Below are positions 6,996 to 29,567 of a DNA stretch of 34,487 bases, piece after piece. The notes under the pieces are model-generated. The model worked only from the letters and a program-made list of their open reading frames with translations. It searched no databases and was not told the origin of the DNA. Origin of the DNA: an uncultured Opitutaceae bacterium (GTDB lineage Bacteria > Verrucomicrobiota > Verrucomicrobiia > Opitutales > Opitutaceae); assembly GCA_903919205.1 (NCBI GenBank), contig CAIXHE010000014.1:1-34487 (forward strand). Direction: 5' to 3'. How positions within the stretch are numbered: position 1 is the stretch's first letter; each line of letters opens with the position of its first letter. The translations under genes were made by a program, and so were the position numbers.

Positions 6996-7006
6996 CTCAT
7001 TATTCC

Positions 7007-8449: not shown

Positions 8450-8471
8450 GACCTCGAAACCACCCGCCACG

Positions 8472-11010: not shown

Positions 11011-12722
11011 GAGGACCCGTTCGATCTCAGGTCGATCGTCTGCACGATGTCGCGGGGAAAGAACAACTCGAAGGTCCAGTTGACGAGGACCCGGATCTTG
11101 CGCTCGAGGCCGGGCAGCTTCGAGACATAGATGCCCCTCCACATCATCCAGGCGAGGAGCCCGGAGAACCGGACCTGCCTTCCCCCGGTGAAAGGAACCG
11201 TGATCTCCGCGCAGGCGGTTTGGTGTCCCACCACACAGAGGGCTCCCAGCGAATCGAAATGGAACGGCTCCGGGGGCAGGCCCCTCAGGGAGCGGCTGAT
11301 GTTGCGCGCGAGCGCGCGCCCCTCGCGCAGGGCAAACTGTGCGGTCGGGGGGCAGGGATTGCCGCTCTTCCCGTCCTTGAGGGCCGCGCAGTCGCCGAGC
11401 GCCCAAATCCCGTCGCGGCCGGTGACGGCCATCGTGCTGTCGACAACGACCGCGCCCCGCTTGTCCGTCTCGAGCCCGAACGAATTGAGCCAGGGGCTGG
11501 GCCCAGACCCCGCGGTCCACGCCAGGGTCTGCGTGCGGATCTCCCCCTTGCTCAGGGTCACCTTGCCCTCCTCGGCGTCCAGCAAGCGCGTATTGAGCCG
11601 AAACTCGACGCCGCGGGCCGCCATACGGTCGAGGGCGTAGCGCCCGAGCGACTCGCTCAGCTCGGGGAGGATGCGGTCCCGCGAGTGCACGAGCACGGTC
11701 CTCACCTCGGCCTCGGGCACACGCGGATAATCCGCCAGGATTCCGCGCGAAAAGTCGTTCAGCGCCCCGGCCAGCTCGACTCCAGCGAATCCCCCGCCGG
11801 CCACCACGAAGGTGACGAGCGAGCGGCGCACCTCGGGGTCCGCCTCGCGGTCGGCACGCTCGAACATCTCGATCACGTGGTTGCGGATCCGGATCGCGTC
11901 GAGGAGCGTCTTGAAGTCGAAGGCGTGCTTCTGGATGTTCGCAGCGCCGAAATAGTTGGAGACGGATCCCACGGCCAGGACCAGGTGGTCGAAGCCGATC
12001 TCCCGCGCTGAACCGGGTCCGCCCCGTGCCGGGGCTACCGTCAGGATCCGCCGCCCGAGGTCTACGCCGGCGGCGCACCCTCGGACAAACTCCGTCCGGC
12101 GGAGCGCCGTTCTGAGCGGCGCGCTGATGTGTCCCGGCTCAAGGCTGCCACCCGCGACTTCCGCCAGCATCGGGGTGAACAGCAGGGCGTTCTGGTCGCT
12201 CACGAGCGTGATGGACACCGACCCATCATCGGGTAGCAGGTCCTCCAGGCCCTCGGCTGTGGACATCCCGGCGAATCCCCCGCCCACAATCACGATTCGC
12301 TTGGGGGATGCAGAGGCGGCGGGGGCCGCATCGTGATGGCCGCCCATGAATCGAGCCGCGAGGCCGTTCAACCCCGGGGCCACAAGGCCCAGCAGCGACC
12401 CGTAGAGAATCCATCCTAGCAGGGCGGGAAGCTGCATCCGCATCGCCTCTGCGCCTAGTTCCGGGGCATGCCCCGAGATCGCCGATGAGCCGGCACAGGT
12501 GACAAGCGCCCATGCGGGCAGCCCGAGCGCGCTTCCTGCAAGAACCGAGCCCGCCGGTGTGCGTTTCGTCGGCCCCAGCGCTGCGCCGAAGCCCGCGCCC
12601 ATGATGATGCCCGCGACGACGCCCCCGCTCGCGAGCGCATGCGCCGCTGCGAGCGGGTAGCTAGACAGTGCGCCGCTTATAGCCCCGCAAAGAATGCGCC
12701 GGGCGAGTGGGGTGATGCTCAT
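11007..12722 (-). CDS. Type II NADH dehydrogenase-like FAD oxidoreductase with N-terminal membrane domain
   Basis: The 571-residue product has four hydrophobic segments in residues ~1-125, then a flavoprotein domain of the NDH-2 family. The FAD loop IVGGGFAGMS lies near residue 148, the NAD loop VAGGGFAGVE lies mid-protein, and WALGDCAA is the C-terminal FAD motif. NPCPPTAQFALREG and WRGIYVSKLPG are typical of NDH-2, whose C-terminus docks on the membrane and passes NADH electrons to quinone without proton pumping. The start at 12722 (MSITPLARR) is preferred; the frame extends to 12791 with unpersuasive sequence. NDH-2 enzymes normally lack a polytopic N-terminus, so this fusion is unusual. 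It is divergent from a second NDH-2 gene. Confidence 0.85.
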   Translation of the reverse strand: MSITPLARRILCGAISGALSSYPLAAAHALASGGVVAGIIMGAGFGAALGPTKRTPAGSVLAGSALGLPAWALVTCAGSSAISGHAPELGAEAMRMQLPALLGWILYGSLLGLVAPGLNGLAARFMGGHHDAAPAASASPKRIVIVGGGFAGMSTAEGLEDLLPDDGSVSITLVSDQNALLFTPMLAEVAGGSLEPGHISAPLRTALRRTEFVRGCAAGVDLGRRILTVAPARGGPGSAREIGFDHLVLAVGSVSNYFGAANIQKHAFDFKTLLDAIRIRNHVIEMFERADREADPEVRRSLVTFVVAGGGFAGVELAGALNDFSRGILADYPRVPEAEVRTVLVHSRDRILPELSESLGRYALDRMAARGVEFRLNTRLLDAEEGKVTLSKGEIRTQTLAWTAGSGPSPWLNSFGLETDKRGAVVVDSTMAVTGRDGIWALGDCAALKDGKSGNPCPPTAQFALREGRALARNISRSLRGLPPEPFHFDSLGALCVVGHQTACAEITVPFTGGRQVRFSGLLAWMMWRGIYVSKLPGLERKIRVLVNWTFELFFPRDIVQTIDLRSNGSS

Positions 12723-13412: not shown

Positions 13413-14729
13413 ATGCCCGAAAAAGTCCAAACAATCATGATTGTCGGAGGCGGTTTTGCCGGTGTCACCCTGGCTCGACGCCTCGAAAGGGCGCTTCCGC
13501 CGGAGACCGAAGTGGTTGTCGTCAGCACTGAGAACCACTTGGTTTTTACCCCGATGCTCCCGGAGGTGGTAGGCAGGACCATCTCTCCCCTGGATGTCGT
13601 CGTCGCCGGTCGCACGATGACCCGCCGCACCAAGTGGCTGGAAGCGCGGGTCAATCGGATCGATCGCGAAAGGAGCGAGGCGCACTATGTGCGGAGGGAC
13701 GGGACCACCGCCTCAATGCGCTATACCCACCTGGTGTTCGCCTGCGGAGTAGAGGCCGATCTCGCGGAGATTCCCGGTCTGGCTTCGAGGGGCCATGCGT
13801 TGAAGACGGTCGGGGACGCGATCGATATGGGAGACCATCTGATCGGTCTCTTCGAATTGGCCGCCTCGGAGGAAGATTCATCGATGCGACAACGCTTGCT
13901 CACGGTTGTCGTCGTTGGCGGAGGATTCAGCGGGGTCGAAGTAGCCGGACACATCGCCGATTTGATGCGGAGGATTCGGAAATTTTACCCGGAGATAAAG
14001 AACGAAGCACCCCGGGTTGTTCTGCTCCACAAGGGCGAGCGGCTCCTGCCGGAATTGACTCACGCGTCGTTGTCCGCATTCGCGCTGAAGAAGCTTCGTA
14101 AGAACCGGATCGACGTACGCCTGAAGGCGGCGGCTGAGAGGGTCACCTCGGCGGCCGTGCATCTGGCGTCTGGCGAGCGGATTGAGACGGAAATGATCGT
14201 CTGCACGGTGGGAACCACGGCGTCGGGGTTGATCAAGGGCCTCGGTCTCCCGCTCGAAAAGGGCCGGCTTCCGACCGAACCGGAGATGAGGGTTGGAGGG
14301 TCCTCCAACCTCTGGGCGCTTGGCGACTGTTCGCTGATTCCCAACGGGTACAACCGACACCCATGCCCGGCGACGGCGCAGTTTGCCATCGAGCAGGCCC
14401 GCCAATTGGCGGAGAACCTGATCCACGTCGCACAAGGGCGCCCGCCGAGGCCCTTCCGTTTTCGCCCTCGGGGCATGTTTGCGTCGATTGGGCATCGCAA
14501 TGCCGTCGCGGAAATCTATGGATTCAAGCTGTCGGGCTTCGTGGCTTGGTTCCTGTGGCGCGGCCTCTACCTGGCGAAGCTGCCCACGTTCAGCCGGAAG
14601 CTCGCGGTCGCAGCGGGTTGGGCATCGGCGATCCCGTTTCCGCCAAATATCGTCCAGCTTCGACCTGCGCCCAAGCAGCCGTCAGATGCGGCGGCAGGAC
14701 GGCCCAAGCTGGCGGAGGGAACTTCATGA
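13413..14729 (+). CDS. ndh: Type II NADH:quinone dehydrogenase (NDH-2)
   Basis: The 438-residue flavoprotein begins MPEKVQTIMIVGGGFAG, placing the FAD-binding loop directly at the N-terminus, which favours 13413 over the ATG at 13338. The second Rossmann loop VVVGGGFSGVE binds NADH, and LWALGDCS is the flavin-binding C-terminal motif. HPCPATAQFAIEQ and FLWRGLYLAKLP match the quinone and membrane-docking region of NDH-2. It oxidises NADH and reduces quinone on the cytoplasmic face without pumping. It is the first gene of the respiratory block, and its stop overlaps the next start as ATGA. It differs from the leftward paralogue by lacking the membrane N-terminus. Confidence 0.92.
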   Translation: MPEKVQTIMIVGGGFAGVTLARRLERALPPETEVVVVSTENHLVFTPMLPEVVGRTISPLDVVVAGRTMTRRTKWLEARVNRIDRERSEAHYVRRDGTTASMRYTHLVFACGVEADLAEIPGLASRGHALKTVGDAIDMGDHLIGLFELAASEEDSSMRQRLLTVVVVGGGFSGVEVAGHIADLMRRIRKFYPEIKNEAPRVVLLHKGERLLPELTHASLSAFALKKLRKNRIDVRLKAAAERVTSAAVHLASGERIETEMIVCTVGTTASGLIKGLGLPLEKGRLPTEPEMRVGGSSNLWALGDCSLIPNGYNRHPCPATAQFAIEQARQLAENLIHVAQGRPPRPFRFRPRGMFASIGHRNAVAEIYGFKLSGFVAWFLWRGLYLAKLPTFSRKLAVAAGWASAIPFPPNIVQLRPAPKQPSDAAAGRPKLAEGTS

Positions 14730-17125
14730 ATGCAGCCGATCGCAATGCACCAGGCGCCCCAGGGATCCAACCGCGATGGACCTCCAGCGCCAAGGATGGC
14801 GTGGGAACGGCCTACAGCGCCAGTTCCCACCTATGGTTCACGTTGAGCCACGGCATCGTGAACGAAGTCTATTACCCTCATGTGGACGCCCCGAACACAC
14901 GCGATCTCCAATTCCTCATCACCGACGGCGAGACGTTCTGTCATGAGGAGAAGCGAGATCTCGACCACAAGATCGAATACCCGGAGCACGACGCGCTGCT
15001 TTACCGGCTGACCAATTCGGACCGCGACGGCCGCTATCGCCTGGTCAAGGAGATCATCGGGGAGCCGCACTCGGCGGTTCTTCTGGTGCAGACCCGCCTG
15101 GAGATTCTCGACGAACGGCTGAGGGGCAAGTTGAGCCTCTTTGTGCTGCTCGCACCGCACCTGAAGGGGACGGGAGAACACAACTCGGCCCGCTGCCAGG
15201 ATACCGAGGGTCGAAAGCTCTTCCAGGCCGAGCGTGAGGATGTCCACATGGTGATGGGCTGTTCGCCCGATTTCATACGGCGCTCGGTCGGCTACGTCGG
15301 CTCCAGCGACGGCTGGCAGGACCTCATGGGCAATTTCAAGATGGACTGGGACTATCAGCAGGCGGTCGATGGCAACATCGCCCTCACTGGCGAGGTCGAT
15401 CTCTCGCACGGCCTGCAGTTTGTCATGGGTGTTGCCTTTGGCCGCAGCAGTCAGAGTGCCTCGACCCAGCTCCTGCAGGCCCTGGCAACGCCCTTCACAC
15501 AGCAGCGCGAAAAGTATGTCGGCCAGTGGCAGCGCACGCGCTCCGACGATGAACTACGTTCCGAAACCGGCGATGGCGGCCACCTGCTGCGCCTGAGCCG
15601 GAGCGTCCTGCTCGCCCACGAAGACAAGACCTTCCCGGGGGCGTTTGTTGCGTCGCTGAGCATTCCCTGGGGCGAGACCAAGGATGACAGCGACCAAGGC
15701 GGCTATCACCTCGTTTGGACGCGCGATATGGTGCAAACAGCCACCGCCTTGCTCGCCTGCGGTCGGACCGAGTCGCCGCTTCGCGCCCTGATATGGCTCG
15801 CCTGCGTCCAGCAGGCCGATGGCAGCATGCCGCAAAACAGCTCGATCACGGGCGAACCCTATTGGAAGGGCATCCAGATGGACGAGGTGGCGGTGCCGAT
15901 CTTGCTGGCATGGCGCCTGCGGCGGGAAAAGGCCTTGCGGCAATTTGATCCCTGGACACTTATCTCACGAGCGGCGAAATACTTAATCACGCACGGTCCG
16001 GTGACCGCCCAGGAGCGGTGGGAGGAGAATTCCGGCTACTCGCCCTCGACACTGGCATCGATGATCGCGGCTCTGATCTGCGCGGCAGACTTCGCGCACG
16101 ACCGGAACGAGGCTGTCGCCGCAAATCTCATGGTCGCCTACGCCGACTGGCTTTCGACGCACCTCGAGGAATGGACGGCCACGGATCGCGGCGAACTAGT
16201 CGCAGGTAGGCCGCGGCATTATGTGCGAATCACGCCAGCCAGTCCGCAACTGCCCGGCCTAGCGGCCGATCCCAACAATGCCCTCATAACGATCGCCAAT
16301 GGAGGCGGCGAACACCCCGCGCGCAATGTCGTTGGGGGTGACTTTCTCCAACTGGTTCGCCTTGGGGTGCGTGCCGCCGATGATCCCCTGGTGGTCGACT
16401 CGGTCGCCGTCATCGACCAGGTTCTCAAGCACGATCTGCCCCAGGGGCCATGCTGGCGCCGCTACAACCATGACGGATATGGGCAAAAGCACGACGGAAG
16501 CGCCTTTGACGGGACAGGAATCGGGCGGTCCTGGCCCATCCTGGCCGGCGAACGCGGGCATTATGAACTGGCCGCCGGGCGAGACCCCAAGCCGTTCATT
16601 GCGGCCCTTGAGAAATTCGCGAACTCCGGCGGGATGCTGCCCGAACAGCTCTGGGACGCGGAGGATCTGCCGGATCGAAACCTGACGTTCGGCGGCCCGA
16701 CCGGCTCAGCCATGCCCTTGTGCTGGGCGCATGCGGAGTACCTGTCGCTCGTGCGCAGCAGCCACGACCGCGTCTGCTTCGACCGAATCGAAGCTGTGTA
16801 CCAGCGCTATGCAAAGGCAAGGACGCAGGGAAACATGGAGATGTGGACGTTTGCCCATCCGTCGGCCGAAATGCGGGAGGGCAGAGGCCTTCGCATTATC
16901 GTCGAGCAGTCGGCCAACATCCATTGGTCGGTCGACGCCTGGGCAACCACCGGCGTCCTGGATACCAGCGCCTGCGGCCTCGGAATGCATTGGGCCGATT
17001 TGCCCACCGCCCCGCTGCCGCCCGGCACGAGAGTCGTTTTCACCTTCCACTGGACGGTGGCGAATCGCTGGGAAGGGCGTGATTTTTCCACAGCGGTCGC
17101 GGGAGCCAGTCGTAACGCGTCCTAG
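14726..17125 (+). CDS. GH15 glucoamylase/glucodextranase-like glycoside hydrolase
   Basis: The 799-residue product starts at the ATG overlapping the NDH-2 stop; an open frame from 14363 is a shadow of that gene. Residues ~15-270 form the N-terminal beta-sandwich of bacterial glucoamylases, with TAYSASSHLWFTLSHG and NEVYYP. The catalytic (alpha/alpha)6 barrel follows, with YHLVWTRDMVQT, the general acid E387 in QMDE and the general base E640 in MLPEQLWD. It would release glucose from the non-reducing ends of alpha-glucans. No signal peptide is visible, so a cytoplasmic role on glycogen, maltodextrin or trehalose-like glucans is likely. Its place inside a respiratory operon is unusual. Confidence 0.93.
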   Translation: MNAADRNAPGAPGIQPRWTSSAKDGVGTAYSASSHLWFTLSHGIVNEVYYPHVDAPNTRDLQFLITDGETFCHEEKRDLDHKIEYPEHDALLYRLTNSDRDGRYRLVKEIIGEPHSAVLLVQTRLEILDERLRGKLSLFVLLAPHLKGTGEHNSARCQDTEGRKLFQAEREDVHMVMGCSPDFIRRSVGYVGSSDGWQDLMGNFKMDWDYQQAVDGNIALTGEVDLSHGLQFVMGVAFGRSSQSASTQLLQALATPFTQQREKYVGQWQRTRSDDELRSETGDGGHLLRLSRSVLLAHEDKTFPGAFVASLSIPWGETKDDSDQGGYHLVWTRDMVQTATALLACGRTESPLRALIWLACVQQADGSMPQNSSITGEPYWKGIQMDEVAVPILLAWRLRREKALRQFDPWTLISRAAKYLITHGPVTAQERWEENSGYSPSTLASMIAALICAADFAHDRNEAVAANLMVAYADWLSTHLEEWTATDRGELVAGRPRHYVRITPASPQLPGLAADPNNALITIANGGGEHPARNVVGGDFLQLVRLGVRAADDPLVVDSVAVIDQVLKHDLPQGPCWRRYNHDGYGQKHDGSAFDGTGIGRSWPILAGERGHYELAAGRDPKPFIAALEKFANSGGMLPEQLWDAEDLPDRNLTFGGPTGSAMPLCWAHAEYLSLVRSSHDRVCFDRIEAVYQRYAKARTQGNMEMWTFAHPSAEMREGRGLRIIVEQSANIHWSVDAWATTGVLDTSACGLGMHWADLPTAPLPPGTRVVFTFHWTVANRWEGRDFSTAVAGASRNAS

Positions 17126-17152
17126 AATCGAGGACTCGAGAAGGAACCCGCA

Positions 17153-18112
17153 ATGGACCAAGACCACATCCGCTTGTCTGTCGCGGCGGTGCTGCAGGTA
17201 TTTGATCCGCAATCGCCTCAGGCCCGCGCAATGTTCCGCCTTGGGCTCGAGTCGAGCGTGATCTTTGCGATCATTTTCGCGATGGTCGCGGGAGCCGTCG
17301 TTTACGCACTCATGCGCTATCGCTGGCACGAGGGTGAGCCGGATCCCCGCCAGGTCGCCGGGAACACGACGATCGAGATCGTCTGGACGGCCATACCGTG
17401 CGCGATCGTCGTGGCGCTCTTCGCGCTCACCGCCCGTACGATGAGCGTGTCCGATCCCCCGGCGGCACCGGCGCCCGACCTCCTCGTCATCGGTCACCAA
17501 TGGTGGTGGGAGGCCCGCTATCCGAAATCGGGCGTCGTGGCCGCTAACGAGATCCACATCCCGGTCGGTCGGGCGATGTCCATAGAGTTCGACTCGGCCG
17601 ATGTGTTGCACGAATTTTGGGTGCCGCGCCTGGCCCGAAAAATCGCCGCCGTTCCAGGCCATCCGAATCACATCTGGATCGAGGCCGACGCGCCGGGAAC
17701 CTATCTGGGCGTGTGCTCGGAGTTTTGCGGGACCGAACATGCTTGGATGCACTTTCTCATCATCGCGGAGACTCCGGCGAAGTTCGCTGAATGGGAGAGC
17801 TCGCAACTCCTTCCGGCGTCTAAGCCCGCGGGACTTGAGGCGCGCAAAGGCCTGGCCCTTTTTGAACAGACGAGCTGTGTGAGCTGTCACGCAGTCAACG
17901 GCACCGTCGCCGGGGCGCGGGTGGGACCCGACCTCACGCATTTTGCCAGCCGCCGCGAACTCGGCGCGGGAATCGTCGAGAATACGCCGGACAACCTCCG
18001 TCGCTGGCTGAAGGACCCGCAGCAGGTGAAGCCCGGCGCTAAGATGCCGGACTTCAAGTTTTCGGGTGAGCAGATCGGGCAGTTGGTCGCCTACTTTGAG
18101 ACCCTAAAATGA
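17153..18112 (+). CDS. coxB: Cytochrome c oxidase subunit II with C-terminal cytochrome c domain
   Basis: The 319-residue protein has two transmembrane helices (~30-53 and ~75-95) and a periplasmic cupredoxin domain whose CuA ligands are all present: H153, C188, C192, H196 and M199 (CSEFCGTEHAWM). QWWWEARYP is the aromatic electron-entry patch. A heme c domain follows, with C242, C245, H246 (CVSCH) and a candidate axial Met in GAKMPDF. This caa3-type layout lets the oxidase accept electrons from the cytochrome c domain of the bc-type complex encoded downstream. No cleavable lipoprotein signal is evident. It overlaps the next gene by 4 bp. Confidence 0.95.
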   Translation: MDQDHIRLSVAAVLQVFDPQSPQARAMFRLGLESSVIFAIIFAMVAGAVVYALMRYRWHEGEPDPRQVAGNTTIEIVWTAIPCAIVVALFALTARTMSVSDPPAAPAPDLLVIGHQWWWEARYPKSGVVAANEIHIPVGRAMSIEFDSADVLHEFWVPRLARKIAAVPGHPNHIWIEADAPGTYLGVCSEFCGTEHAWMHFLIIAETPAKFAEWESSQLLPASKPAGLEARKGLALFEQTSCVSCHAVNGTVAGARVGPDLTHFASRRELGAGIVENTPDNLRRWLKDPQQVKPGAKMPDFKFSGEQIGQLVAYFETLK

Positions 18113-20340
18113 GCGAACTCGCCGCCATCCTGACCCGTGCCGGTCTTTCGAATCCCGAACAAAGGGAGCATTGGACCATGAAGTGGATCTCGACCATGGA
18201 CCACAAGCGCATCGGGATTCTTTATTTGTCCACTGCGCTCGTTTTTTTCGTCATCGGCGGCATCGAGGCCCTTCTCATTCGGCTGCAGCTCGCGGTTCCG
18301 AACAACCGTCTCCTGCAGCCGGACGAATACAACGTGGTGTTCACCATGCACGGGACAACGATGATTTTCCTGGTCGCGATGCCGGCACTCTTCGGCCTCG
18401 CCAATTATATACTCCCCCTGCAGATCGGCGCGAGAGACATGGCGTTTCCGCGGCTCAACGCCTTCAGCTTCTGGCTGGTTCCCTTCGGGGGTCTGCTGCT
18501 CCACTTCAGCTTCCTCGCGGGCGGAGCCCCGGGCGTGGGCTGGTTCGCCTACGCGCCGCTGAGCGAGACGCCTTACTCGTCACAGCTCGGCGTGGACTAT
18601 TGGGCGCTTGCGCTGTTGGTGTTAGGCATCGGTTCGGTGGGCACGTCGATCAACCTGATCGCGACGGTCCTCACCCAGAGGGCGCCGAATATGACCCTGC
18701 GCCGCCTGCCGCTCTTTTCGTGGATGATATTCGTGAATTCCTTCCTCGTCCTCATGGCGCTGCCGGTCCTTAACGCCGCCCTCGTGATGCTCTTGATCGA
18801 CCGACTGCTCGGCGCGCATTTCTTCCTCCCGTCCAGCGGCGGCTCGGCGATCATGTGGCAGCACATCTTTTGGGCCTTCGGGCATCCGGAGGTGTACATT
18901 GTCGCAATACCGGCGTTTGGCATTCTTTCAGAGGTGATTCCGGTGTTCGCCCGGAAGCCGATCTTTGGCTACGAGTTCGTAGCCGGTTCGACGGTGGCAA
19001 TCGCCTTTCTGAGCCTCCTGGTGTGGGCGCATCACATGTTCACGGTCGGTCTGGGCCATACTGTTGATTTGTTCTTTGTCGCATCGAGCATGCTGATCGC
19101 GATCCCGACGGGAGTGAAGGTTCTCGCCTGGAGCGCCACCTTGGTCGGCGGCCGTATCCGGCTGGATACGCCGATGCTATTTTGCACGGCGGCCTTGCTC
19201 CAATTTCTTCTGGCCGGTCTCACGGGAGTCAGTCTCGCCAGCGCGGCGCTCGATTGGCAGACCAAGAACAGCTACTATCTGGTGGCGCATTTCCACTTCG
19301 TCTTCGTTGGTCTGATCGTTTTCGCCATTTTGGGAGCTCTGCATTATTGGTTCCCGAAGATGAGCGGCCGGCTGCTGTCGGAGCGCCTAGGTAAATGGAC
19401 GTTTTGGCTGATGACAGCCGGGTTCAACATGACGTTCGTCATCCAGCATTTTCTGGGGCTGGCTGGCATGCCGCGGCGCATCTTCACCTATGCCGACCTG
19501 CCGGGCTGGGCGTGGATGAACATGGTTTCGACGATTGGCGCTTTCCTCATGGCTGCTGCGGCGCTGCTTTTCGTCTGGAACCTGGTGACGAGCCTTCTGA
19601 ACGGTGAACGGGCCGGCGACAACCCTTGGAGGGCCTGGACGCTGGAATGGGCGACCACGTCTCCGCCTCCGCCCGGGAATTTCCGGAGTCTCCCGCCCAT
19701 CCGCAGCCGCCGCCCCCTCTGGGACGATGCGAATCCAGACCGTCCCGATCCGATGGTGGGCACGAAATGGCGGGCGGAAGTCCACGTGCCGGAGAAGAAC
19801 GAGACTGCCGTCGCCGCCTTCATCGTTTCCGAATCCGCCTTCTTTGCAGTCCTGATCCTCGCATACCTCTTTTACAACGCGGTTCCGGAGGCGGGGGTAG
19901 GCGCCCACAGCCTCAACCTTGCCAAGACGGGCGCTTTCACGCTGTGCCTTTTGCTCAGCAGCATCACGATCTGGCGCTCGGAGGTGAGCCTGGATCGGGG
20001 AAATCAGCGTGCGATGCGGCTCTGGCTGGCCGCGACCCTTGTTCTGGGGGGTATCTTTCTCACCGGCCAGGGGCTCGAGTACGGGACTCTTTTCGAGGAC
20101 GGCGCGAGCTTGAACGGGAACCTGTTCGCAACGGCCTTCTTCACCCTCACGGGATTCCACGGGTTGCACGTCTGCGCCGGCTTGATCGCCCTGGCTATCG
20201 TTCTCGGACTTGCGCGGTCAGCCGACTTCAAGCGCCACCCGCCGCCGGCCCTCAAGGCGGTCGCGCTCTACTGGCATTTTGTCGACGCGGTCTGGGTGGT
20301 CGTGTTCTCGACCGTTTATTTCCTGCCGCATCTGCGATGA
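18109..20340 (+). CDS. coxA: Cytochrome c oxidase subunit I-III fusion
   Basis: The 743-residue product fuses the catalytic heme-copper subunit I (residues ~1-510) to a five-helix subunit III (~560-743). WAFGHPEVY carries H259 of CuB, the proton-gating E261 and Y263 for the His-Tyr crosslink. HH in VWAHHMF supplies CuB ligands, and VAHFHFVF supplies heme a and a3 ligands. K337 in TGVKVLAW marks the K-channel, and GARDMAFPRLN carries the D-channel aspartate. It is an A-family proton-pumping oxidase that reduces O2 to water in the inner membrane. The subunit III part has FIVSESAFFA, FTLTGFHGLHV and YWHFVDAVWV. Such fusions are known in other caa3 oxidases. Confidence 0.95.
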   Translation: MSELAAILTRAGLSNPEQREHWTMKWISTMDHKRIGILYLSTALVFFVIGGIEALLIRLQLAVPNNRLLQPDEYNVVFTMHGTTMIFLVAMPALFGLANYILPLQIGARDMAFPRLNAFSFWLVPFGGLLLHFSFLAGGAPGVGWFAYAPLSETPYSSQLGVDYWALALLVLGIGSVGTSINLIATVLTQRAPNMTLRRLPLFSWMIFVNSFLVLMALPVLNAALVMLLIDRLLGAHFFLPSSGGSAIMWQHIFWAFGHPEVYIVAIPAFGILSEVIPVFARKPIFGYEFVAGSTVAIAFLSLLVWAHHMFTVGLGHTVDLFFVASSMLIAIPTGVKVLAWSATLVGGRIRLDTPMLFCTAALLQFLLAGLTGVSLASAALDWQTKNSYYLVAHFHFVFVGLIVFAILGALHYWFPKMSGRLLSERLGKWTFWLMTAGFNMTFVIQHFLGLAGMPRRIFTYADLPGWAWMNMVSTIGAFLMAAAALLFVWNLVTSLLNGERAGDNPWRAWTLEWATTSPPPPGNFRSLPPIRSRRPLWDDANPDRPDPMVGTKWRAEVHVPEKNETAVAAFIVSESAFFAVLILAYLFYNAVPEAGVGAHSLNLAKTGAFTLCLLLSSITIWRSEVSLDRGNQRAMRLWLAATLVLGGIFLTGQGLEYGTLFEDGASLNGNLFATAFFTLTGFHGLHVCAGLIALAIVLGLARSADFKRHPPPALKAVALYWHFVDAVWVVVFSTVYFLPHLR

Positions 20341-21113
20341 CCACGGAACAATTCCTACTCCGGGGATGGACATGGGGCGGCTGCAGCCTGCCGATGGGCG
20401 CCGCCGTCCTGGTGTGCTACCTCGTTGCATTTGGGTTTCAGCGCCGCTTTTCCTGCTTCGCTGCCGCGCTGGGGCTGACTCTGCTTACGCTGAGGTCGCC
20501 AATCAATTCGCTCGCCGACGGATATCTCTTCAGCGCCCACATGCTCCAGCATCTCATCCTGCTGCTGATCGTGCCGGCCTTGGCGATGCTCAGCTTGCCT
20601 CGATCGCTCTCGCTTGCAATGCGGCCACGCGTCCTCGGCCATCCGCTGTTTGGGTGGATTGCGGGCGTCGGCGCCATGTGGTTGTGGCATGCGCCGGCCC
20701 TGTGCAACGCTGCGGTTTCATCGCGGTCGGTTCATGCCTTGCAAACTGTCTCGCTGCTGGCGATGGGCGGCCTGTTTTGGCGGCAGATTCTGGCGCCCCG
20801 GGAGAGCGAGCGGCTTGTGCCGCCCTCGGCGATTTTGTACCTATTTAGCGCCTGCGTGACGTGCAGCATTCTGGGAATCATCGTCACCTTTTCGCCGGTC
20901 GAGGTTTGCTCAATCTACTCCGCGCCGCCGATCGATCGCCTTGGCCTGCTGCAGTTCGTCAGGGCGGGGTGGGGCATGACGCCGGAGCGGGACCAGCAGG
21001 TCGGAGGACTGCTGATGTGGGTGCCCATGTGCCTGATCTATTTGAGCGCGATCGTGGTCCAGATCGCGCGCTGGTTCGCCGCGACCGAAGGCCCCTTGGC
21101 CGAAAAGCTATGA
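20337..21113 (+). CDS. ctaG: Cytochrome c oxidase assembly factor CtaG (caa3 type)
   Basis: The 258-residue polytopic membrane protein has about six or seven helices. SAHMLQHLILLL and MWLWHAP are characteristic conserved His motifs of the caa3_CtaG family, which is needed to assemble the copper centres of caa3 oxidases. The ATG at 20337 overlaps the subunit I-III stop; the frame is open much further upstream only as a shadow of that gene. This is the bacillar-type integral CtaG and not the Cox11-type protein of the same name. Heme a synthesis genes (ctaA, ctaB) and Sco are absent from the window, so they must be elsewhere. Confidence 0.85.
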   Translation: MTTEQFLLRGWTWGGCSLPMGAAVLVCYLVAFGFQRRFSCFAAALGLTLLTLRSPINSLADGYLFSAHMLQHLILLLIVPALAMLSLPRSLSLAMRPRVLGHPLFGWIAGVGAMWLWHAPALCNAAVSSRSVHALQTVSLLAMGGLFWRQILAPRESERLVPPSAILYLFSACVTCSILGIIVTFSPVEVCSIYSAPPIDRLGLLQFVRAGWGMTPERDQQVGGLLMWVPMCLIYLSAIVVQIARWFAATEGPLAEKL

Positions 21114-21334
21114 TCCCCGACGATCCTTCACCGTCCCACTCCCATTGGGATCTGCTTCCGCCCGAGCGCCTTCCGCGCCCCACCTATTGCCCGGCGGGCA
21201 TGGCCTTGGGCGCGGCCCTGCTTTTCTGGGGCATCATCACCTCCTGGGTCATCCTGCTCGTCGGATTCGGGGTGTTCACTGTCATGCTGGGGCGATGGAT
21301 CGCCGAAATTCTCCATGAACGAAAACAGTCTTGA
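21110..21334 (+). CDS. Small membrane protein, possible oxidase subunit IV-like
   Basis: The 74-residue product has one polar N-terminus rich in Pro, His and Ser and two closely spaced hydrophobic helices (~30-46 and ~47-66) ending in a charged tail (HERKQS). The start overlaps the CtaG stop as ATGA, and its last 20 bp overlap the Rieske gene. Position and topology resemble the small accessory subunit IV that often follows subunit III in heme-copper oxidase operons. There is no diagnostic motif, so this is a positional inference. Confidence 0.6.
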   Translation: MIPDDPSPSHSHWDLLPPERLPRPTYCPAGMALGAALLFWGIITSWVILLVGFGVFTVMLGRWIAEILHERKQS

Positions 21335-21851
21335 CCCCTCGCAGCCATGCCGGGAGCCGACGCGTGAGGAACTCACGCGTCGACTGTTCCTCGGGAAAAT
21401 TTCGCTGGGACTCGCTGGGGTGGGCGCGGCAATCGTCACCCTGCCGGTTATCGGGTTCATTTTTGCACCCTTGTTCCGCAGAGAGCCCGGAGTCTGGCGC
21501 ACCGTGGGAGCGGCTGGGGATTTCAAAATCGGCGAGACATCGGCGGTCGTTTTTCTGGACGCCTCGCCGCTGCCGTGGGCGGGGATGACGGCCAAGACGG
21601 CCGCTTGGCTTCGACGAACGTCCGATCAGGAGTTCATCGCCTTCGCGATCAATTGCAGCCATCTGGGCTGCCCGGTCCGATGGCAGCCGTCGGCGCGGCT
21701 TTTCATGTGCCCCTGTCATGGGGGAGTCTATTACGAGGACGGCAGCGTCGCCGCCGGACCTCCTCCGTCGCCGCTGGCGCGCTATCCGGTTCGGGTGCAG
21801 GGCGGAAAGGTGCAGATCCAAACCCGGCCGATCGAAATTCAACGAGCCTGA
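21315..21851 (+). CDS. Rieske [2Fe-2S] protein of a bc-type complex
   Basis: The 178-residue product has an N-terminal RRLFLGK twin-arginine-like motif before a single hydrophobic helix (~30-52), consistent with a Tat-exported, membrane-anchored Rieske protein. The cluster ligands are C114 and H116 in CSHLGC and C132 and H135 in CPCHGG; C119 and C134 form the stabilising disulfide of high-potential Rieske proteins. It would take the first electron from quinol at the Qo site and pass it to cytochrome c. It is 7 bp from the cytochrome b gene, whose product completes the complex. Confidence 0.93.
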   Translation: MNENSLDPSQPCREPTREELTRRLFLGKISLGLAGVGAAIVTLPVIGFIFAPLFRREPGVWRTVGAAGDFKIGETSAVVFLDASPLPWAGMTAKTAAWLRRTSDQEFIAFAINCSHLGCPVRWQPSARLFMCPCHGGVYYEDGSVAAGPPPSPLARYPVRVQGGKVQIQTRPIEIQRA

Positions 21852-21858
21852 CGTGTCG

Positions 21859-23262
21859 ATGATTCGCGAAACGTTCAAGATGGCAGTGGGTTGGGTCGAC
21901 GATCGCCTGGGCCTTTCGGCAACCCTTGGGCCGATGCTGCGCCACCTGGTTCCCCACGACGCACGGTGGTGGTATGTCTTCGGGAGTGCGACGCTCTGCG
22001 CCTTCATGATCCAGGTGGTCAGCGGCGTGGCTCTCGCCTTTGCCTACAGCCCATCGGCCACGGATGCCTATCCCACGCTCCAATTCATCACCCACGACGC
22101 GCCCTTTGGAAATTTCCTGCGAGGCCTTCATTACTTCGGGGCCTCGGCAATGGTGCTGATGGTCGGCCTCCACATGGCCCAGGTCTTCCTCTTTGGATCG
22201 TACAAGTTTCCCCGCGAGATGAACTGGATGACCGGCGTATTGCTCCTCGGATTCGTCTTGCTCATGGGCTTTACCGGCCAGCTTCTTCGGTGGGACCAGA
22301 CTGCGGTTTGGTCGGTGGTGGTCGCGGCCGAGCAGGCCGGCCGCATTCCTTTGATTGGCGAATGGGTAGCAAGATTCACGCTGGGCGGCCAAACCTTGGG
22401 AGGAGCTACTCTTAACCGGTTCTTTGCGATCCACGTGTTTATTGTGCCTGCATTGACCTTCGCCTTCATCGGGCTGCACCTGCTCCTGGTGTTGCGTCAC
22501 GGCGTGGCCGAACCGCCCAAGGTGGGAGAGCCCGTTGACCCAAGGACCTATAGGGCGAATTATCAGGCGCTTCTCAAGAAGAGCGGCCGGCCATTCTGGC
22601 CCGATGCGGCCTGGCGGGACGTGGTGTTTTGCGTCGGGATGATTGCGGCCGTCGCACTATTGGCACTCGTCTTCGGTCCGCCGGAACTGGGCAAGCCACC
22701 GGACCCCAGCATCATCGAGGCCAACCCGCGGCCGGACTGGTATTTGCTCTGGTATTTCGCGGTTCTCGCGCTGCTTCCGCACGGCACGGAAAAGGTCTTC
22801 ATGGTATTCGGACCGTTGACTGTCGGCTTGCTCCTGATCCTTCTTCCCTTTCTTGCGCCGAGTGGCGAACGCAGCCCCCTTCGACGCCCCTGGGCCGTGG
22901 TAGGAATCCTGCTTACGGTGACGGTCATCGGCGCCCTTTGGGTGGTCGGCAGAAAGTCTCCGTGGTCCCCCAACTTCAGTCCTGAGCCGCTGACCGCGAA
23001 GATCGTCGGCGCAACGAGCGGCCCCGTCTTTGTCGGCGCGCAGCTGTTCCAAGAGAAGTCGTGCATCGACTGCCACCTGGTCGAAGGCATCGGTGGGCGT
23101 CGCGGACCGGATCTCACTTATATCGCCGACAACTTGAAAAGGAGCGACATGATCATCCGCATCGTGAACGGCGGCGTAAACATGCCCTCCTACGGGGCGA
23201 CCCTGAAGCCAGGGGAGTTGGAGAACCTCGTCGCCTTCTTGGAAACGCGAACCAAACACTGA
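21859..23262 (+). CDS. Cytochrome b fused to C-terminal cytochrome c (bc/b6f-type complex)
   Basis: The 467-residue single polypeptide combines the four-helix heme-binding domain, a subunit IV-like helical domain and a heme c domain. Heme b ligands are H91/H105 (13 residues between) and H192/H207 (14 residues between, the b6-type spacing). The Qo motif is PDWY at 292-295 in place of PEWY. The c domain has C402, C405, H406 (CIDCH) and a probable axial M442. It oxidises quinol, pumps protons through the Q cycle and can deliver electrons to the oxidase. GTG at 21853 is an alternative start. A separate cytochrome c1 is not encoded and would be replaced by the fused domain. Confidence 0.92.
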   Translation: MIRETFKMAVGWVDDRLGLSATLGPMLRHLVPHDARWWYVFGSATLCAFMIQVVSGVALAFAYSPSATDAYPTLQFITHDAPFGNFLRGLHYFGASAMVLMVGLHMAQVFLFGSYKFPREMNWMTGVLLLGFVLLMGFTGQLLRWDQTAVWSVVVAAEQAGRIPLIGEWVARFTLGGQTLGGATLNRFFAIHVFIVPALTFAFIGLHLLLVLRHGVAEPPKVGEPVDPRTYRANYQALLKKSGRPFWPDAAWRDVVFCVGMIAAVALLALVFGPPELGKPPDPSIIEANPRPDWYLLWYFAVLALLPHGTEKVFMVFGPLTVGLLLILLPFLAPSGERSPLRRPWAVVGILLTVTVIGALWVVGRKSPWSPNFSPEPLTAKIVGATSGPVFVGAQLFQEKSCIDCHLVEGIGGRRGPDLTYIADNLKRSDMIIRIVNGGVNMPSYGATLKPGELENLVAFLETRTKH

Positions 23263-23323
23263 AACATCAGCCTAAGGCAGTCCTTGCGGAATGTCCGCTC
23301 GGCTTCACATCCATCACATTCCT

Positions 23324-24091
23324 ATGCGCTTAAAAAACACGGTGGCAATCGTCACAGGGGCATCCTCGGGCATCGGCCAAGCCATCGCGATTCGATTTGC
23401 CCGGGAGGGGGCTGCGGTCGTTGTCGACTACGTGGGCGACGCGGACACCCCCGCCGCGACCGAGATGCAGATTGCGAGCTTCGGCGGAAGGTCCATCGCG
23501 GTGGCGGCTGACGTGTCGAAGCCAGAGGAAGCGCAGAATCTCATTGATCGTGCCGTCGCCGCCTTCGGCAGGCTCGACATCGTGGTGAACAATGCCGGCA
23601 TCGAGAAGAAGTGCGACTTCGTCGACTATCCGCTGGATGAATGGCAGAAGATCTTGGCGGTAAACCTTGTCGGCCCGTTCTTGGTCAGCCAGGCGGCCGC
23701 GCGACAGATGATCGTCCAGGGCCAAGGCGGGCGGCTGATCAACATCTCGTCCGTCCACGAGGACCTCCCGATGCCGACCAATTCGGCCTACTGCTCAAGC
23801 AAGGGCGGCCTGCGAATGCTCATGAGGACGATCGCCGTGGAATTGGCGAAACACAGGATCACGGTGAACAACATCGGTCCGGGAGCGGTGTTTACTCCCA
23901 TCGACGCCGATGTGGAGGCCAAACCTGAGATGGAGAAGGCCCTCATGGCCGAGATTCCGCTCAACCGCTGGGGAAAACCGGAGGAGATTGCAGGGCTTGC
24001 CGTGTTTTTGGCTTCCGACGAAGCGGCCTATATCACCGGGTCCACCTACTTTATCGATGGGGGTATGCTCCGGCAGTCAGGCAGCTACTGA
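23324..24091 (+). CDS. SDR family oxidoreductase, glucose 1-dehydrogenase-like
   Basis: The 255-residue short-chain dehydrogenase has the cofactor loop TGASSGIG, NNAG, and the Ser-Tyr-Lys triad (ISSVHE and AYCSSKGG). The EKK after NNAGI, the SVHEDLPMP stretch and PGAVFTPI closely resemble bacterial glucose 1-dehydrogenases, which oxidise beta-D-glucose to gluconolactone with NAD(P)+. The ATG at 23324 is preferred to 23291 because MRLKNTVAIVTG is the usual N-terminus. If it uses glucose, it could take the product of the GH15 enzyme and yield NADH for the NDH-2 in the same block. The SDR assignment is certain and the substrate is an inference. Confidence 0.85.
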   Translation: MRLKNTVAIVTGASSGIGQAIAIRFAREGAAVVVDYVGDADTPAATEMQIASFGGRSIAVAADVSKPEEAQNLIDRAVAAFGRLDIVVNNAGIEKKCDFVDYPLDEWQKILAVNLVGPFLVSQAAARQMIVQGQGGRLINISSVHEDLPMPTNSAYCSSKGGLRMLMRTIAVELAKHRITVNNIGPGAVFTPIDADVEAKPEMEKALMAEIPLNRWGKPEEIAGLAVFLASDEAAYITGSTYFIDGGMLRQSGSY

Positions 24092-24121
24092 TCCCAGGGC
24101 TGCGATTCCCATTTTTTGTTT

Positions 24122-25669
24122 ATGACCAACGGAAATCACTACGACTTTATCATCATCGGGAGCGGTGCCGGAGGAGGCACGCTCGCGCTCAAGCTGGCCG
24201 GTTCGGGGAAGAGGATCCTCATCGTCGAGCGGGGCGATTACTTGCCCCGCGAGAAGGAGAACTGGGATCCGACGGAAGTATTCGTCAAGTCGCGGTATGT
24301 CGCTGACGACAAGTGGCATGACAAGGACGGCAAGGAGTTCCAGCCGGGCATCCACTATGTGGTCGGCGGTGCGACCAAGATGTTTGGAGCCGCCCTCTTC
24401 CGCCTTCGCAAGGAAGACTTCAGCGAGGTGAAACACTACGACGGTGTTTCCCCTGCGTGGCCCGTTTCCTACGAGGAATTCGAGCCCCATTATTGCGAAG
24501 CGGAGAAGCTTTACCAGGTCCATGGACTTCGTGGCGAGGATCCAACCGAGCCTCCCGCAAGCATGCCCTATCCGTTCCCTCCGATCGCCCACGAACCCCG
24601 CATCCAAAGGCTCAACGACGATCTGCTCAAGGCGGGTCACCATCCCTTTCATGCGCCCACGGCGGTCATGCTGAACGAGGCGCACCGGGCCGAGAGCCAC
24701 TGCCTCAAGTGCGACACCTGCGATGGCTATCCGTGCATGGTCCACGCCAAGGCGGATGCCGAGGTGATCGCTGTTCGGCCGGCATTGAAGCATTCCAACG
24801 TCACCCTTCTGACCAAGGCCGAGGTGATCCAGCTCAAGACCAGCTCTTCGGGACGCGAGGTGACCGAGGTCGTGATAAGCCATGGCGGAGGCATCGAGTC
24901 GTACGGCGGCAGTATCGTCGTCGTCTCGGCGGGCGCTGCCAACAGCGCGCGCCTGTTGCTGATGTCCGCCAACGACAAGCATCCGAACGGGCTGGCGAAC
25001 GGATCCGATCAGGTCGGGCGCAACTACATGTTCCACAACAGCCAAGCAGTCGTAGCGCTCGCGATGGAGCCCAACCTGACGGTTTTCCAGAAGACAATTG
25101 CGCTCAATGATTTCTATTTCCGCGACGGGGATTTCGAGTTCCCGCTCGGCAACATCCAGATGATCGGCAAGTCCAAGGGTCCGATGTTCAAGGACGACGC
25201 ACCCTTTTTCGCGCCGGGGTTCGCACTGGATGAGATGGCCCGCCACGCCGTCGACTTTTGGCTGACCACCGAGGATCTTCCCGACCCCAATAATCGCATC
25301 ACGCTCGATCGGGAAAAGAAGATCGTCCTCAGCTATACGTTCAACAACGAGGTTCCAACCAAGCGGCTTTTTGAGCGCTTAAAATCGATGCTCAATCTCA
25401 TGGGAATGCACAAGCATCTGATTCCGAATTCGGCCTATTTGGGGAAGGTGATCCCGATCGCAGGCGTCGGCCATCAGAGCGGAACCTGCCGTTTTGGAAC
25501 GGATCCCACCAGCTCAGTCTTGGATACGAACTGCAAGGCCCATGAGCTGGACAACCTCTACGTCGTCGACACGAGTTTCTTCTGCAGCATCGGAGCGGTG
25601 AACCCCTCGCTAACGGCGATCGCCAATGCCCTGCGTGTCGGCGATCACCTCTTGGCTCGGTGCCCGTAA
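24122..25669 (+). CDS. GMC family FAD oxidoreductase with cysteine cluster
   Basis: The 515-residue protein has the FAD loop IIGSGAGGGTLALKLA at the N-terminus, the GMC C-terminal signature, the catalytic H451 in GHQSGTCRFG and N494 in AVNPSLT. GMC enzymes oxidise alcohols, aldoses or gluconate. No signal peptide is seen, so it is probably cytoplasmic. The unusual element is C194, C197, C200 and C205 (CLKCDTC...PC), a spacing compatible with metal or Fe-S binding, in the region where some bacterial GMC dehydrogenases place a cluster. ATG at 24122 is chosen over an upstream TTG. It overlaps the following channel gene by 10 bp. Confidence 0.88.
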   Translation: MTNGNHYDFIIIGSGAGGGTLALKLAGSGKRILIVERGDYLPREKENWDPTEVFVKSRYVADDKWHDKDGKEFQPGIHYVVGGATKMFGAALFRLRKEDFSEVKHYDGVSPAWPVSYEEFEPHYCEAEKLYQVHGLRGEDPTEPPASMPYPFPPIAHEPRIQRLNDDLLKAGHHPFHAPTAVMLNEAHRAESHCLKCDTCDGYPCMVHAKADAEVIAVRPALKHSNVTLLTKAEVIQLKTSSSGREVTEVVISHGGGIESYGGSIVVVSAGAANSARLLLMSANDKHPNGLANGSDQVGRNYMFHNSQAVVALAMEPNLTVFQKTIALNDFYFRDGDFEFPLGNIQMIGKSKGPMFKDDAPFFAPGFALDEMARHAVDFWLTTEDLPDPNNRITLDREKKIVLSYTFNNEVPTKRLFERLKSMLNLMGMHKHLIPNSAYLGKVIPIAGVGHQSGTCRFGTDPTSSVLDTNCKAHELDNLYVVDTSFFCSIGAVNPSLTAIANALRVGDHLLARCP

Positions 25670-26517
25670 CAACCGGCAGCGCGCAAGGGAAAGACGCCAA
25701 GGCGCTCCGCCTGGATCGCCTGTCCGCGGCCGAGTCGTTGCGCACACACTGGCCGGAATATATGATGGAGGGGGCGCAGCTCGGGATCTTCATGATTTCC
25801 GCGGGCGCTGTCACCGCCTTGCTCGAGTCTCCGCAATCCTTTCTCGGCCGGGCTCATCTCGATCCTGCTCTAAGCCGCGCCCTGATCGGTGTCGCGATGG
25901 GGGCGACTGCCATGGGCCTCATCTATTCTCCTTGGGGGAAGCGGTCGGGATCGCACATGAATCCGGCGATCACGATAACGTATCTGCGCCTCGGCAAGAT
26001 ACCTCCCTGGGATGCCTTCTTTTACATCATCTTCCAGTTCGCCGGTGGTCTGATCGGAGTCATCCTGACGGCTTGGGTTCTCGGGACTGCCTTTACGCTG
26101 CCGCCCGTGAACTATGTCGCCACGATCCCGGGTCCGACCGGACCTTGGGCTGCCTTTGCCGGAGAGCTGATCATAAGCGTCATAATCATGGCGATGATAC
26201 TCTATGTCTCCAACAGGGCAGCCATCGCCCGCTTCACCGGCCTCTTTGCGGGTCTTCTCATCGCGTGCTTTGTTGAATTCGAAGCGCCCTATTCGGGTTT
26301 TGGCATGAATCCGGCCCGCACGCTCGCGTCGGCGCTCCCGAGCGGTATCTGTACAGGGTTGTGGATTTATTTCACGGCTGCTCCGATCGGAATGCTCCTA
26401 GCGGCCCAAGGCTATCTAGCAGTAAGGGGTCCGAATTCGATCCACTGCTGCAAACTCCACCACCACTCAGCTGGCCGCTGCATTTATTGCGGTCTGCAGG
26501 GACTCTGGGAAAAGTGA
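25660..26517 (+). CDS. MIP/aquaporin family channel with C-terminal Cys/His tail
   Basis: The 285-residue product has six predicted helices and both pore motifs, HMNPAIT and GMNPARTL, which define major intrinsic proteins transporting water, glycerol or small neutral solutes. The N-terminus (about 35 residues) is longer than in most bacterial aquaporins. The extra C-terminal tail contains HCC, HHH and C..C (HCCKLHHH...RCIYCG), a potential zinc site outside the membrane. The start is GTG at 25660, overlapping the GMC stop, which indicates coupling. As the last gene of the block it may export or import a small polyol, water or a peroxide-like solute; the solute cannot be determined. Confidence 0.88.
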   Translation: MPVTTGSAQGKDAKALRLDRLSAAESLRTHWPEYMMEGAQLGIFMISAGAVTALLESPQSFLGRAHLDPALSRALIGVAMGATAMGLIYSPWGKRSGSHMNPAITITYLRLGKIPPWDAFFYIIFQFAGGLIGVILTAWVLGTAFTLPPVNYVATIPGPTGPWAAFAGELIISVIIMAMILYVSNRAAIARFTGLFAGLLIACFVEFEAPYSGFGMNPARTLASALPSGICTGLWIYFTAAPIGMLLAAQGYLAVRGPNSIHCCKLHHHSAGRCIYCGLQGLWEK

Positions 26518-27477: not shown

Positions 27478-28296
27478 ATGAAAACATCGCCCTCCCTGCA
27501 CTGCCGGCTCGCAGGCATCAATGTCCATCCGCGTAGTCCAGATGGCAGACCGGACCCCACCTTGCCTCGCACGCAGGCCTCGCAGCTCCTACGAGCCCTT
27601 GCATTGGCTGCGTGCGCTTGTCTGGTCCTCGCACGGACCGCGCCTCTCGCCGCGGCCGATTTTCCGCAGCTTCTTACCCAAGCCCGCGCCGCCCGCCAGG
27701 CCCACGACCCCGCGAAGGCGATCGAACTCTACTCCGCCGCCATCGAGGCCAACCCGTGGTCGGGCGAGGCTTGGCTTGAGCGGGGCTATGTGTACTGGGG
27801 TCGAGAGCAGCGGACGTTGGCCCGGCTGGACTTCAATCAAGCCGTCCTTGCGGATCCGACGTTTGCGCAGGCCTACGTGACCCGGGGCGATCTGGACGCG
27901 CGGATGTCGCGACGCGACTGGAAAGGGTGCGAACATGACTACGCCACCGCCCTGAAACTACAGCCGGATTTTCCCTTCTATTTCGCCTACACCGCCGAGC
28001 TTTACCTTTATAATGGCCAACCGGCCCGAGCGATCGCCGAAGCCAGAAAGGGCCTCGCGAAGGATCCGACCGCGCTGATTTACAAGATGAACCTCGCTCA
28101 CGGCCTGCTCTTCACAGGTCAGGTCGAAGCCGCCCGGAAACTCTACACGGAAATGGCGCCCCTGGAAGTCGAGCCCGGAATGAACGGCGTCGCCTTTGCC
28201 TTGCACGATTTCGACGGCCTCCGGCGCATCGGCGAGGTGGTGTACCCCCAAATCGCCGAGACCGAGCCCTGGTTGAAAGGCCTCGCCACCAGGTGA
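27478..28296 (+). CDS. Exported tetratricopeptide-repeat protein
   Basis: The 272-residue product contains about four TPR units between residues ~66 and 235, for example AIELYSAAIEANP, A..DFNQAVLADP and DYATALKLQP, each ending in the (L/A)xP turn typical of TPRs. The hydrophobic run at ~39-58 (ALALAACACLVLA) ending in AAA looks like a signal peptide, but about 38 unusually polar residues precede it, so the true start may lie further in although no good alternative codon is seen. TPRs mediate protein-protein contacts; the partner is unknown. It is 33 bp upstream of the nucleoside-hydrolase-family gene, suggesting cotranscription. Confidence 0.78.
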   Translation: MKTSPSLHCRLAGINVHPRSPDGRPDPTLPRTQASQLLRALALAACACLVLARTAPLAAADFPQLLTQARAARQAHDPAKAIELYSAAIEANPWSGEAWLERGYVYWGREQRTLARLDFNQAVLADPTFAQAYVTRGDLDARMSRRDWKGCEHDYATALKLQPDFPFYFAYTAELYLYNGQPARAIAEARKGLAKDPTALIYKMNLAHGLLFTGQVEAARKLYTEMAPLEVEPGMNGVAFALHDFDGLRRIGEVVYPQIAETEPWLKGLATR

Positions 28297-28329
28297 GACT
28301 CATCCGAGAGCCGACAATACGCTGAGAAC

Positions 28330-29484: not shown

Positions 29485-29512
29485 AGATGGTGGACTCTAC
29501 AGGACTCGAACC
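29485..29512. repeat. Left att-like repeat (tRNA-Val 3' end copy)
   Basis: This 28-bp copy matches 30996-31023 except at 29496 (T instead of G), including the T-arm and acceptor sequence with encoded CCA. Similarity ends abruptly inside the T-arm, so this copy is not a functional tRNA. Confidence 0.8.
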
Positions 29513-29567
29513 AGTGAGTGAGTCTGGTCGGAACGATGAAAATGGACCTTAGCGAAAGAAGAGACCT

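Follow-up and report, generated by a model that had tools for sequence, protein, structure and literature searches.

A bc complex-caa3 oxidase block encoded together with predicted glucan and glucose oxidation enzymes in an Opitutaceae genome: a recurrent but optional arrangement of known parts

Terminal oxidases are usually regarded as serving every electron donor in the cell. The closest described counterparts of the respiratory part of the locus analyzed here are the A1 caa3 oxidases with an adjoining bc complex, which share with it CuA and a cytochrome c on subunit II, a fusion of subunits I and III, and the placement of ctaG, Rieske and cytochrome b-c genes in one run. The present locus differs from these in that the bc complex and the oxidase form one compact six-gene unit that is found in several phyla, and in that cytochrome b bears a fused cytochrome c. 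The sugar-related part resembles loci of other bacteria in which a hydrolase of the same GH15 family is encoded beside oxidative pentose-phosphate genes, likewise a glucose-oxidising setting, but has, where those loci have G6PD and 6PGD, an SDR of the glucose dehydrogenase type together with a respiratory core. GH15 takes part in archaeal glycogen breakdown (PMC11046441), and a metabolic model of a desert cyanobacterium led to the proposal that a quinol oxidase provides metabolic water (PMC10516996); among the titles and abstract openings listed in a PMC search, which cannot prove absence, there was no description of the block arrangement or of its pairing. The locus combines known parts in a new arrangement that recurs elsewhere and is optional.

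The window, that is, the whole stretch of 34,487 nucleotides that was analyzed, is contig 14 of a genome of 3.26 Mb (174 contigs, 87.7% complete); the GH15 loci most similar to that of the window bear names that suggest a position within Verrucomicrobiota close to Opitutaceae. Eleven genes occupy positions 13413-26517 on a single strand, with the largest intergenic gap being at most 30 bases (Table 1). All eleven were found on the plus strand, at or very near the positions given by an earlier note on this DNA, and the identities that it had assigned to them agree with the family searches and the best solved relatives; the family match is clear for 10 of the 11 genes, that of the 74-aa peptide being weak. 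The junctions, in gene order, are -4, 27, -4, -4, -4, -20, 7, 28, 30 and -10 bases, so that the description of the block as held together mostly by 4-bp overlaps was incorrect, such overlaps being present at only four of the ten junctions. Terminator-like matches within the block are rarer than in shuffled sequences (9 compared with a mean of 13.5), and promoter-like matches are at chance level (2 compared with a mean of 2.5). The entire block can be predicted to be expressed as a single transcript.

Table 1. The eleven genes of the block and the grounds for their assignment
Feature	Position	Strand	Evidence
NDH-2, type II NADH dehydrogenase	13413..14729	+	Pfam Pyr_redox_2 + NDH2_C; best PDB relative NADH:ubiquinone reductase
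GH15 glucoamylase/glucodextranase-type alpha-glucosidase	14726..17125	+	GH15 family; E433/E640 conserved; no signal-like segment
coxB, subunit II, caa3 type	17153..18112	+	CuA site + C-terminal cytochrome c
coxA-coxC fusion	18109..20340	+	Subunit I (A1-type motifs) + subunit III
ctaG, assembly factor	20337..21113	+	Pfam Caa3_CtaG
74-aa one-span peptide	21110..21334	+	Weak oxidase subunit IV likeness, E 0.009, under cut-off
Rieske 2Fe-2S protein	21315..21851	+	Rieske boxes
Cytochrome b with fused C-terminal cytochrome c	21859..23262	+	PDWY, CXXCH
SDR, glucose 1-dehydrogenase type	23291..24091	+	TGxxxGIG, NNAG, YxxxK; best solved relatives
GMC flavoenzyme, relative of glucose dehydrogenase/fructose dehydrogenase large subunit	24122..25669	+	GMC domains, His-Asn pair
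MIP-family channel (aquaporin)	25660..26517	+	MIP domain, two NPA motifs

The nearly complete NADH-to-oxygen chain that had been proposed for the block is borne out by the presence of NDH-2, bc and caa3 genes in which the motifs of an active chain are intact (CuA, CXXCH, GHPEVY, the K- and D-channel motifs, the Rieske boxes, PDWY and a second CXXCH). The NDH-2 protein combines two nucleotide-binding domains with the NDH2 C-terminal domain, as is characteristic of the family, lacks a membrane span as judged by hydropathy, and would be the entry point of NADH electrons into the chain. The oxidase carries CuA and cytochrome c on subunit II and the heme/CuB ligands along with the D and K channels on subunit I, which we take to be the motif set that defines the A1 class of heme-copper oxidases. 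The NCBIfam cut-offs are reached for CoxB and CtaD, and the caa3_CtaG cut-off of the same collection is not reached by the ctaG product. The bc complex is recognizable by the Rieske 2Fe-2S motifs, the P-E/D-W-Y motif of cytochrome b and the cytochrome c. Because the genome also contains, outside the block, the one complex I subunit gene that was searched for and, on different contigs, another three genes of the COX1 family, of which the weakest match scores 91 bits, the chain of the block is probably additional to the other respiration genes.

Two solved relatives were found for the GH15 protein, a glucoamylase (1lf6), presumably from Thermoanaerobacterium, and a glucodextranase (1ug9), with both of which it aligns over most of its length. 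Residues E438 and E636 of 1lf6, which we assume to be the catalytic acid and base, correspond in the alignment to E433 and E640 of the protein encoded in the window, as expected of a GH15 family member; of the E387/E640 catalytic pair suggested previously, E640 is thus retained, and E387, the Glu of a QMDE motif, gives way to E433. The protein scores just under the NCBIfam glucan_glucosid cut-off (711 compared with 742), which, along with the lack of a signal-like segment, sets it apart from 1lf6 and 1ug9. Given that GH15, SDR and GMC are all devoid of a membrane span or signal-like segment in a simple hydropathy scan, release and oxidation of glucose are predicted to be cytosolic, and GH15 would be an alpha-glucan hydrolase that is apparently intracellular. 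A glycogen synthase gene is present in the genome.

The best solved relatives of the SDR are known glucose 1-dehydrogenases (E 1e-66), presumably of Bacillus origin, and the three SDR motifs characteristic of these enzymes are in place, glucose being the predicted substrate. Among the NCBIfam models, the cut-off of PRK07231, 'glucose 1-dehydrogenase', is reached (243 bits, cut-off 215), and that of PRK08936 is not (277 bits, cut-off 420). Beta 2 ends in an Asp, a residue that at this position marks a preference for NAD and thus suggests one here. The GMC protein, a family member by its domains and His-Asn pair, resembles the known GMC glucose and fructose dehydrogenases, its best solved relatives being a glucose dehydrogenase and the large subunit of a fructose dehydrogenase (E 3e-35); it reaches none of the NCBIfam cut-offs, and the block differs from those systems in that no small or cytochrome partner subunit is encoded among its genes. 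The MIP protein, with its two NPA motifs, has aquaporins of several classes as solved relatives and may carry water or glycerol.

We propose, with a probability of about 0.5, that the block was acquired horizontally and joins two modules, in which ATP-free oxidation of glucan and glucose would be coupled to the bc complex and caa3 oxidase. The first module would be a portable six-gene quinol-to-oxygen core that consists of the Rieske protein, cytochrome b-c, the caa3 oxidase, ctaG and the small peptide, and the second a set for glucan and glucose oxidation that includes NDH-2, GH15, glucose dehydrogenase and GMC, with the aquaporin. Judging from the gene content, cytosolic GH15 would convert storage alpha-glucan to glucose, from which the SDR would produce gluconolactone and NADH; NDH-2 would pass the electrons of NADH to quinone without pumping, the ATP of the kinase step not being spent; GMC could provide a second entry of sugar electrons; and the bc complex and caa3 oxidase would transfer electrons from quinol to oxygen, with conservation of energy. 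These substrates, this route of electrons and the physiological role that they imply for the block are all predictions.

We searched for the core, in the gene order coxB, coxA-C, ctaG, small peptide, Rieske, cytochrome b-c (hereinafter type I), in 387 genomes of the phylum of the window, 250 of its family, 45 of the FCPU426 phylum, 297 from the phylum to which an Acidobacteriaceae genome belongs, 294 from that of Blastopirellula and 320 from the order that includes genome G387, as well as in plasmids; the sets of 387, 297, 294 and 250 genomes are samples of larger groups. With the window included, 27 type I loci with usable flanks were identified in three phyla and on Deinococcus plasmids, the small one-span peptide being encoded at the same position in many of them. 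The six genes of the oxidase/bc core make up a unit that is portable. In a second type of core, coxC and Rieske are separated by two additional genes; this type occurs in Acidobacteriota, some Planctomycetota and a few members of the class of the window; in loci L191-L203, mostly from Acidobacteriota, these two genes are of similar length and have no assigned function. Separately, in genome G046 of the phylum of the window (contig C3, 13864-15393, minus strand), an oxidase subunit I match contains 14 in-frame TGA codons and is perhaps a recoded or contaminant, possibly organellar, sequence.

Genes for GH15, GlgP, G6PD, 6PGD, phosphoketolase, transketolase, transaldolase and GMC were counted as sugar genes when located within 10 kb of the oxidase. 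In the first count, 8 of the 20 type I cores had such genes nearby, as compared with none of 20 cores of other types (among which L126 has a gene order unlike that of the second type) and none of 17 canonical oxidases. For seven further type I cores, at least two positives were expected, a number fixed before the flanks were read, and none was observed, which rules out a general link of the core to sugar genes; two more controls scored alongside were negative as well. The same was the case for five controls (L123, L227, L233, L235 and L237) that were scored by tblastn, all with detectable oxidase genes. In two of the seven, the oxidase gene is incomplete or missing: the 6-kb contig L273 truncates it, and L275 encodes cytochrome b-c and Rieske with no oxidase gene nearby; with these two dropped, the result is 0 of 5 further cores and 8 of 25 overall. 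In total, sugar genes were found near 8 of 27 type I cores and 0 of 44 control oxidase loci (Fisher p 0.0002) or, when the window and the two loci detected by way of GH15 are set aside, near 5 of 24 and 0 of 44, respectively (p 0.004), these values being descriptive because the loci are phylogenetically related rather than independent. Loci L280 and L283 (contig ends), L220 (a 4.5-kb contig), L124 and L125 were left out. GH15 itself was detected in 8 of the 20 core-bearing genomes or plasmids searched. In L275 (genome G1495), a gene for a glucose-dehydrogenase-type SDR, which is outside the sugar-gene criterion, directly follows cytochrome b-c on the same strand (841-1623, minus strand).

Thus, the co-occurrence of GH15 with cox and bc genes across genomes, anticipated in the earlier note, holds for a minority of the cores: 19 of the 27, including all five from the same family, lack a sugar gene within 10 kb, where many flanks are shorter than that and the counts are accordingly lower bounds on sugar-gene presence. 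The circumstance that had been named beforehand as pointing to an accidental association, namely, homologous clusters without the sugar enzymes in most relatives, was therefore encountered in part, in these 19 cores, the seven additional ones among them. The predominance of cores devoid of sugar genes favors the strongest of the alternatives, which we nevertheless consider less probable than the functional coupling: that the core and the sugar genes merely share mobile stress and redox islands as cargo, each working on its own. Against such a coincidence stands the complete lack of sugar genes beside the 44 control oxidases.

The individual pairings range from tight to loose. In G392 (FCPU426), the run 6PGD-G6PD-ROK-like-HAD-GH15-coxB continues through the core with overlaps or gaps below 60 bases. 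In G387 (palsa_1400; locus L222 on contig C355), glgP, zwf and phosphoketolase genes precede coxB and the rest of the core on the same strand, the spacing between consecutive genes being 15-54 bases over the interval from glgP through coxB; upstream of glgP, the end of a phosphoglucomutase-like gene and a small lipoprotein-like gene were noted by eye only. In G393 (Udaeobacter), GH15 is separated from the core by about 342 bases, and coxB and coxA-C are each in two pieces, so this core may be broken or badly assembled. Among the weakest pairings are G078, with G6PD/6PGD 3-4.5 kb away on the opposite strand, G392b, with transketolase 4.9 kb away, and two Deinococcus plasmids, where GMC and GH15 follow the core 5-10 kb on; on a third Deinococcus plasmid, there is no sugar gene within 10 kb of the core, and GH15 is about 34 kb away. 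The tight same-strand packing, with short gaps or overlaps, in the window, G387 and G392, and the provision of the same function by different enzymes (glgP-zwf-xfp in one case and GH15-GDH in another) argue against chance cargo. The association of sugar oxidation with this oxidase, as originally proposed, accordingly survives as a pairing that recurs in unrelated lineages with different enzymes and is missing from most cores; such recurrence supports the idea that the oxidation of glucan or glucose can go together with this oxidase, and the pairing appears to be a recurrent, optional coupling to a dedicated bc-caa3 branch.

Phylogenetic analysis does not favor a single inherited GH15-core arrangement: the four core-linked GH15 proteins, including that of Deinococcus on a long, unsure branch, occupy four separate positions in the GH15 tree, which forces four label changes. 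For the core trees, five changes of the sugar label are needed, four to five of them forced, and the label clusters no more than shuffled labels do, a pattern that fits random cargo as well; on both sets of trees, a change may represent either a gain or a loss. An ancestral pairing that formed once, with later replacement of GH15, is possible. That the same step is served by GH15 in some lineages and by GlgP in another is the principal ground for preferring function to inheritance. Of 100 confirmed GH15 matches, the best 80 were retained, and these represent 79 distinct loci, among which GH15 is near pentose-phosphate genes in 22 and near a type I core in two, the other 77 not being beside a core, where 4 kb on both sides was available for 37 of the 79. 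Near-identical or identical GH15 proteins occur in MAGs assigned to different phyla (L024/L025 and L031/L033/L044), probably as a result of binning errors or very recent transfer.

The G+C content of the block is 0.616, compared with 0.67-0.69 in three other stretches of the same genome, and the third-position G+C is 0.70-0.79 in the ten block genes measured as opposed to 0.83-0.93 in six genes that flank the low-G+C stretch. This stretch includes two genes to the right of the block (27478-29421), with equally low G+C, and extends to a tRNA-Val at 30999. Cytochrome b-c with at least 65% identity was found in 6 of the 250 family genomes, the source genome counted, and none of the 12 listed genomes of the same genus contains the core, the best being partial matches of up to 41%. 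The composition and the absence from the 12 listed congeners suggest that the block was horizontally acquired. Integration of the whole block at tRNA-Val is not supported, since the 33-nt repeat found there encloses no more than 1.5 kb. This direct repeat of the 3' end of tRNA-Val (94%; 29485-29517 and 30996-31028) flanks a low-G+C stretch that looks like a small integrated element.

The nearest relative of the subunit I-III fusion (79% identity) is in G018, where the core has no sugar genes nearby, whereas that of GH15 among the best 80 of 100 matches (75% identity), which also pairs with it in the tree, is in L003, a stretch with the order NDH-2-SDR-GH15, GMC some kilobases off and no core; the genome of L003 is G387, with its core on another contig. 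These affinities give the block the appearance of two joined modules. The same observations can be cited for coincidental cargo as well: the modules occur apart, the core is patchy within the family, and the block is a compositional island, a kind of region that gathers unrelated cargo.

Oxidases of other kinds on plasmids bring up another alternative. On the Caballeronia SBC1 plasmid (L244), a trehalase-like GH15 gene (24468-26276, minus strand) overlaps coxB by 4 bases, with GMC, gluconate-dehydrogenase-like, enolase-like and thiamine-pyrophosphate genes as neighbors, and a similar set is present on a Deinococcus plasmid. A Fischerella NIES-4106 plasmid encodes NDH-2-x-x-coxB-ctaD-ctaE-transketolase-transaldolase-6PGD-G6PD and, about 20 kb away, SDR-glycosidase-like-MIP-GMC; on Azospirillum p3, SDR-aquaporin-GMC lie near a debranching enzyme and a glucosidase. 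Among the 19 of the 25 best plasmid hits that were examined, GMC, GH15 or pentose-phosphate genes are within about 11 kb of 11 of 15 cytochrome c oxidases (two of these records lack annotation of the stretch and were judged by blastp, and three Deinococcus loci are also among the 27 cores), and the four quinol oxidases have GMC near one, an alpha-amylase-family gene near one and sugar-acid genes near one. The contrast between 11 of 15 and 1 of 4 (Fisher p 0.12) proves nothing by itself. By blastp, the GMC and GH15 proteins of Burkholderiales and Deinococcus are distant from those of the window.

Accessory plasmid oxidases located near GH15 (trehalase-like in one case), GMC, gluconate-dehydrogenase-like, SDR or aquaporin genes in Deinococcus, Burkholderiales and cyanobacteria could reflect a shared regulon rather than a shared pathway. 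Under this scenario, which we deem improbable, the genes would respond together to drying, osmotic upshift or starvation with no dedicated electron link, GH15 clearing stress carbohydrate, the oxidase raising respiration and the aquaporin handling water. It does not account for the fact that the path through NDH-2, bc complex and oxidase takes exactly what the glucose dehydrogenase yields, and it receives no direct support from the block, given that family searches found no regulator gene among the eleven. A highly unlikely, speculative reading is that the block is a self-contained storage-glucan-to-water unit, in which drying would trigger glycogen hydrolysis, ATP-free glucose oxidation and, through the dedicated bc-caa3 branch, intracellular production of metabolic water managed by the aquaporin, with the glgP-zwf-phosphoketolase-core locus and the two gene sets of the cyanobacterial plasmid (NDH-2-cox-pentose-phosphate and SDR-glycosidase-MIP-GMC) as repeated inventions of one survival device.

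The similar pairings in several unrelated bacteria hint at a portable pathway from storage sugar to oxygen. Separate assemblies of a glucan/glucose set with the portable bc-caa3 core would speak for respiratory branches that are each dedicated to a substrate and travel as cassettes, and the way in which soil bacteria draw on stored glucan during drying or starvation would become directly testable through one operon.

The surroundings of the block in the window contain several other genes of note. Divergently from the block, another NDH-2 is encoded that is longer and extended at its N-terminus (11007-12722, minus strand); the product of the next gene (9568-10935, minus strand) reaches no family cut-off. 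Farther upstream, a run for sugar or polyol catabolism with a divergent AraC-type regulator (1369-9461) encompasses genes for a MocA-like oxidoreductase, a xylose-isomerase-like barrel protein, a ROK protein, two aldehyde dehydrogenases, a Zn alcohol dehydrogenase and a class II aldolase. At the other end of the window (31153-34293, minus strand), a protein of about 1046 aa contains passenger-associated repeats and a PEP-CTERM tail.
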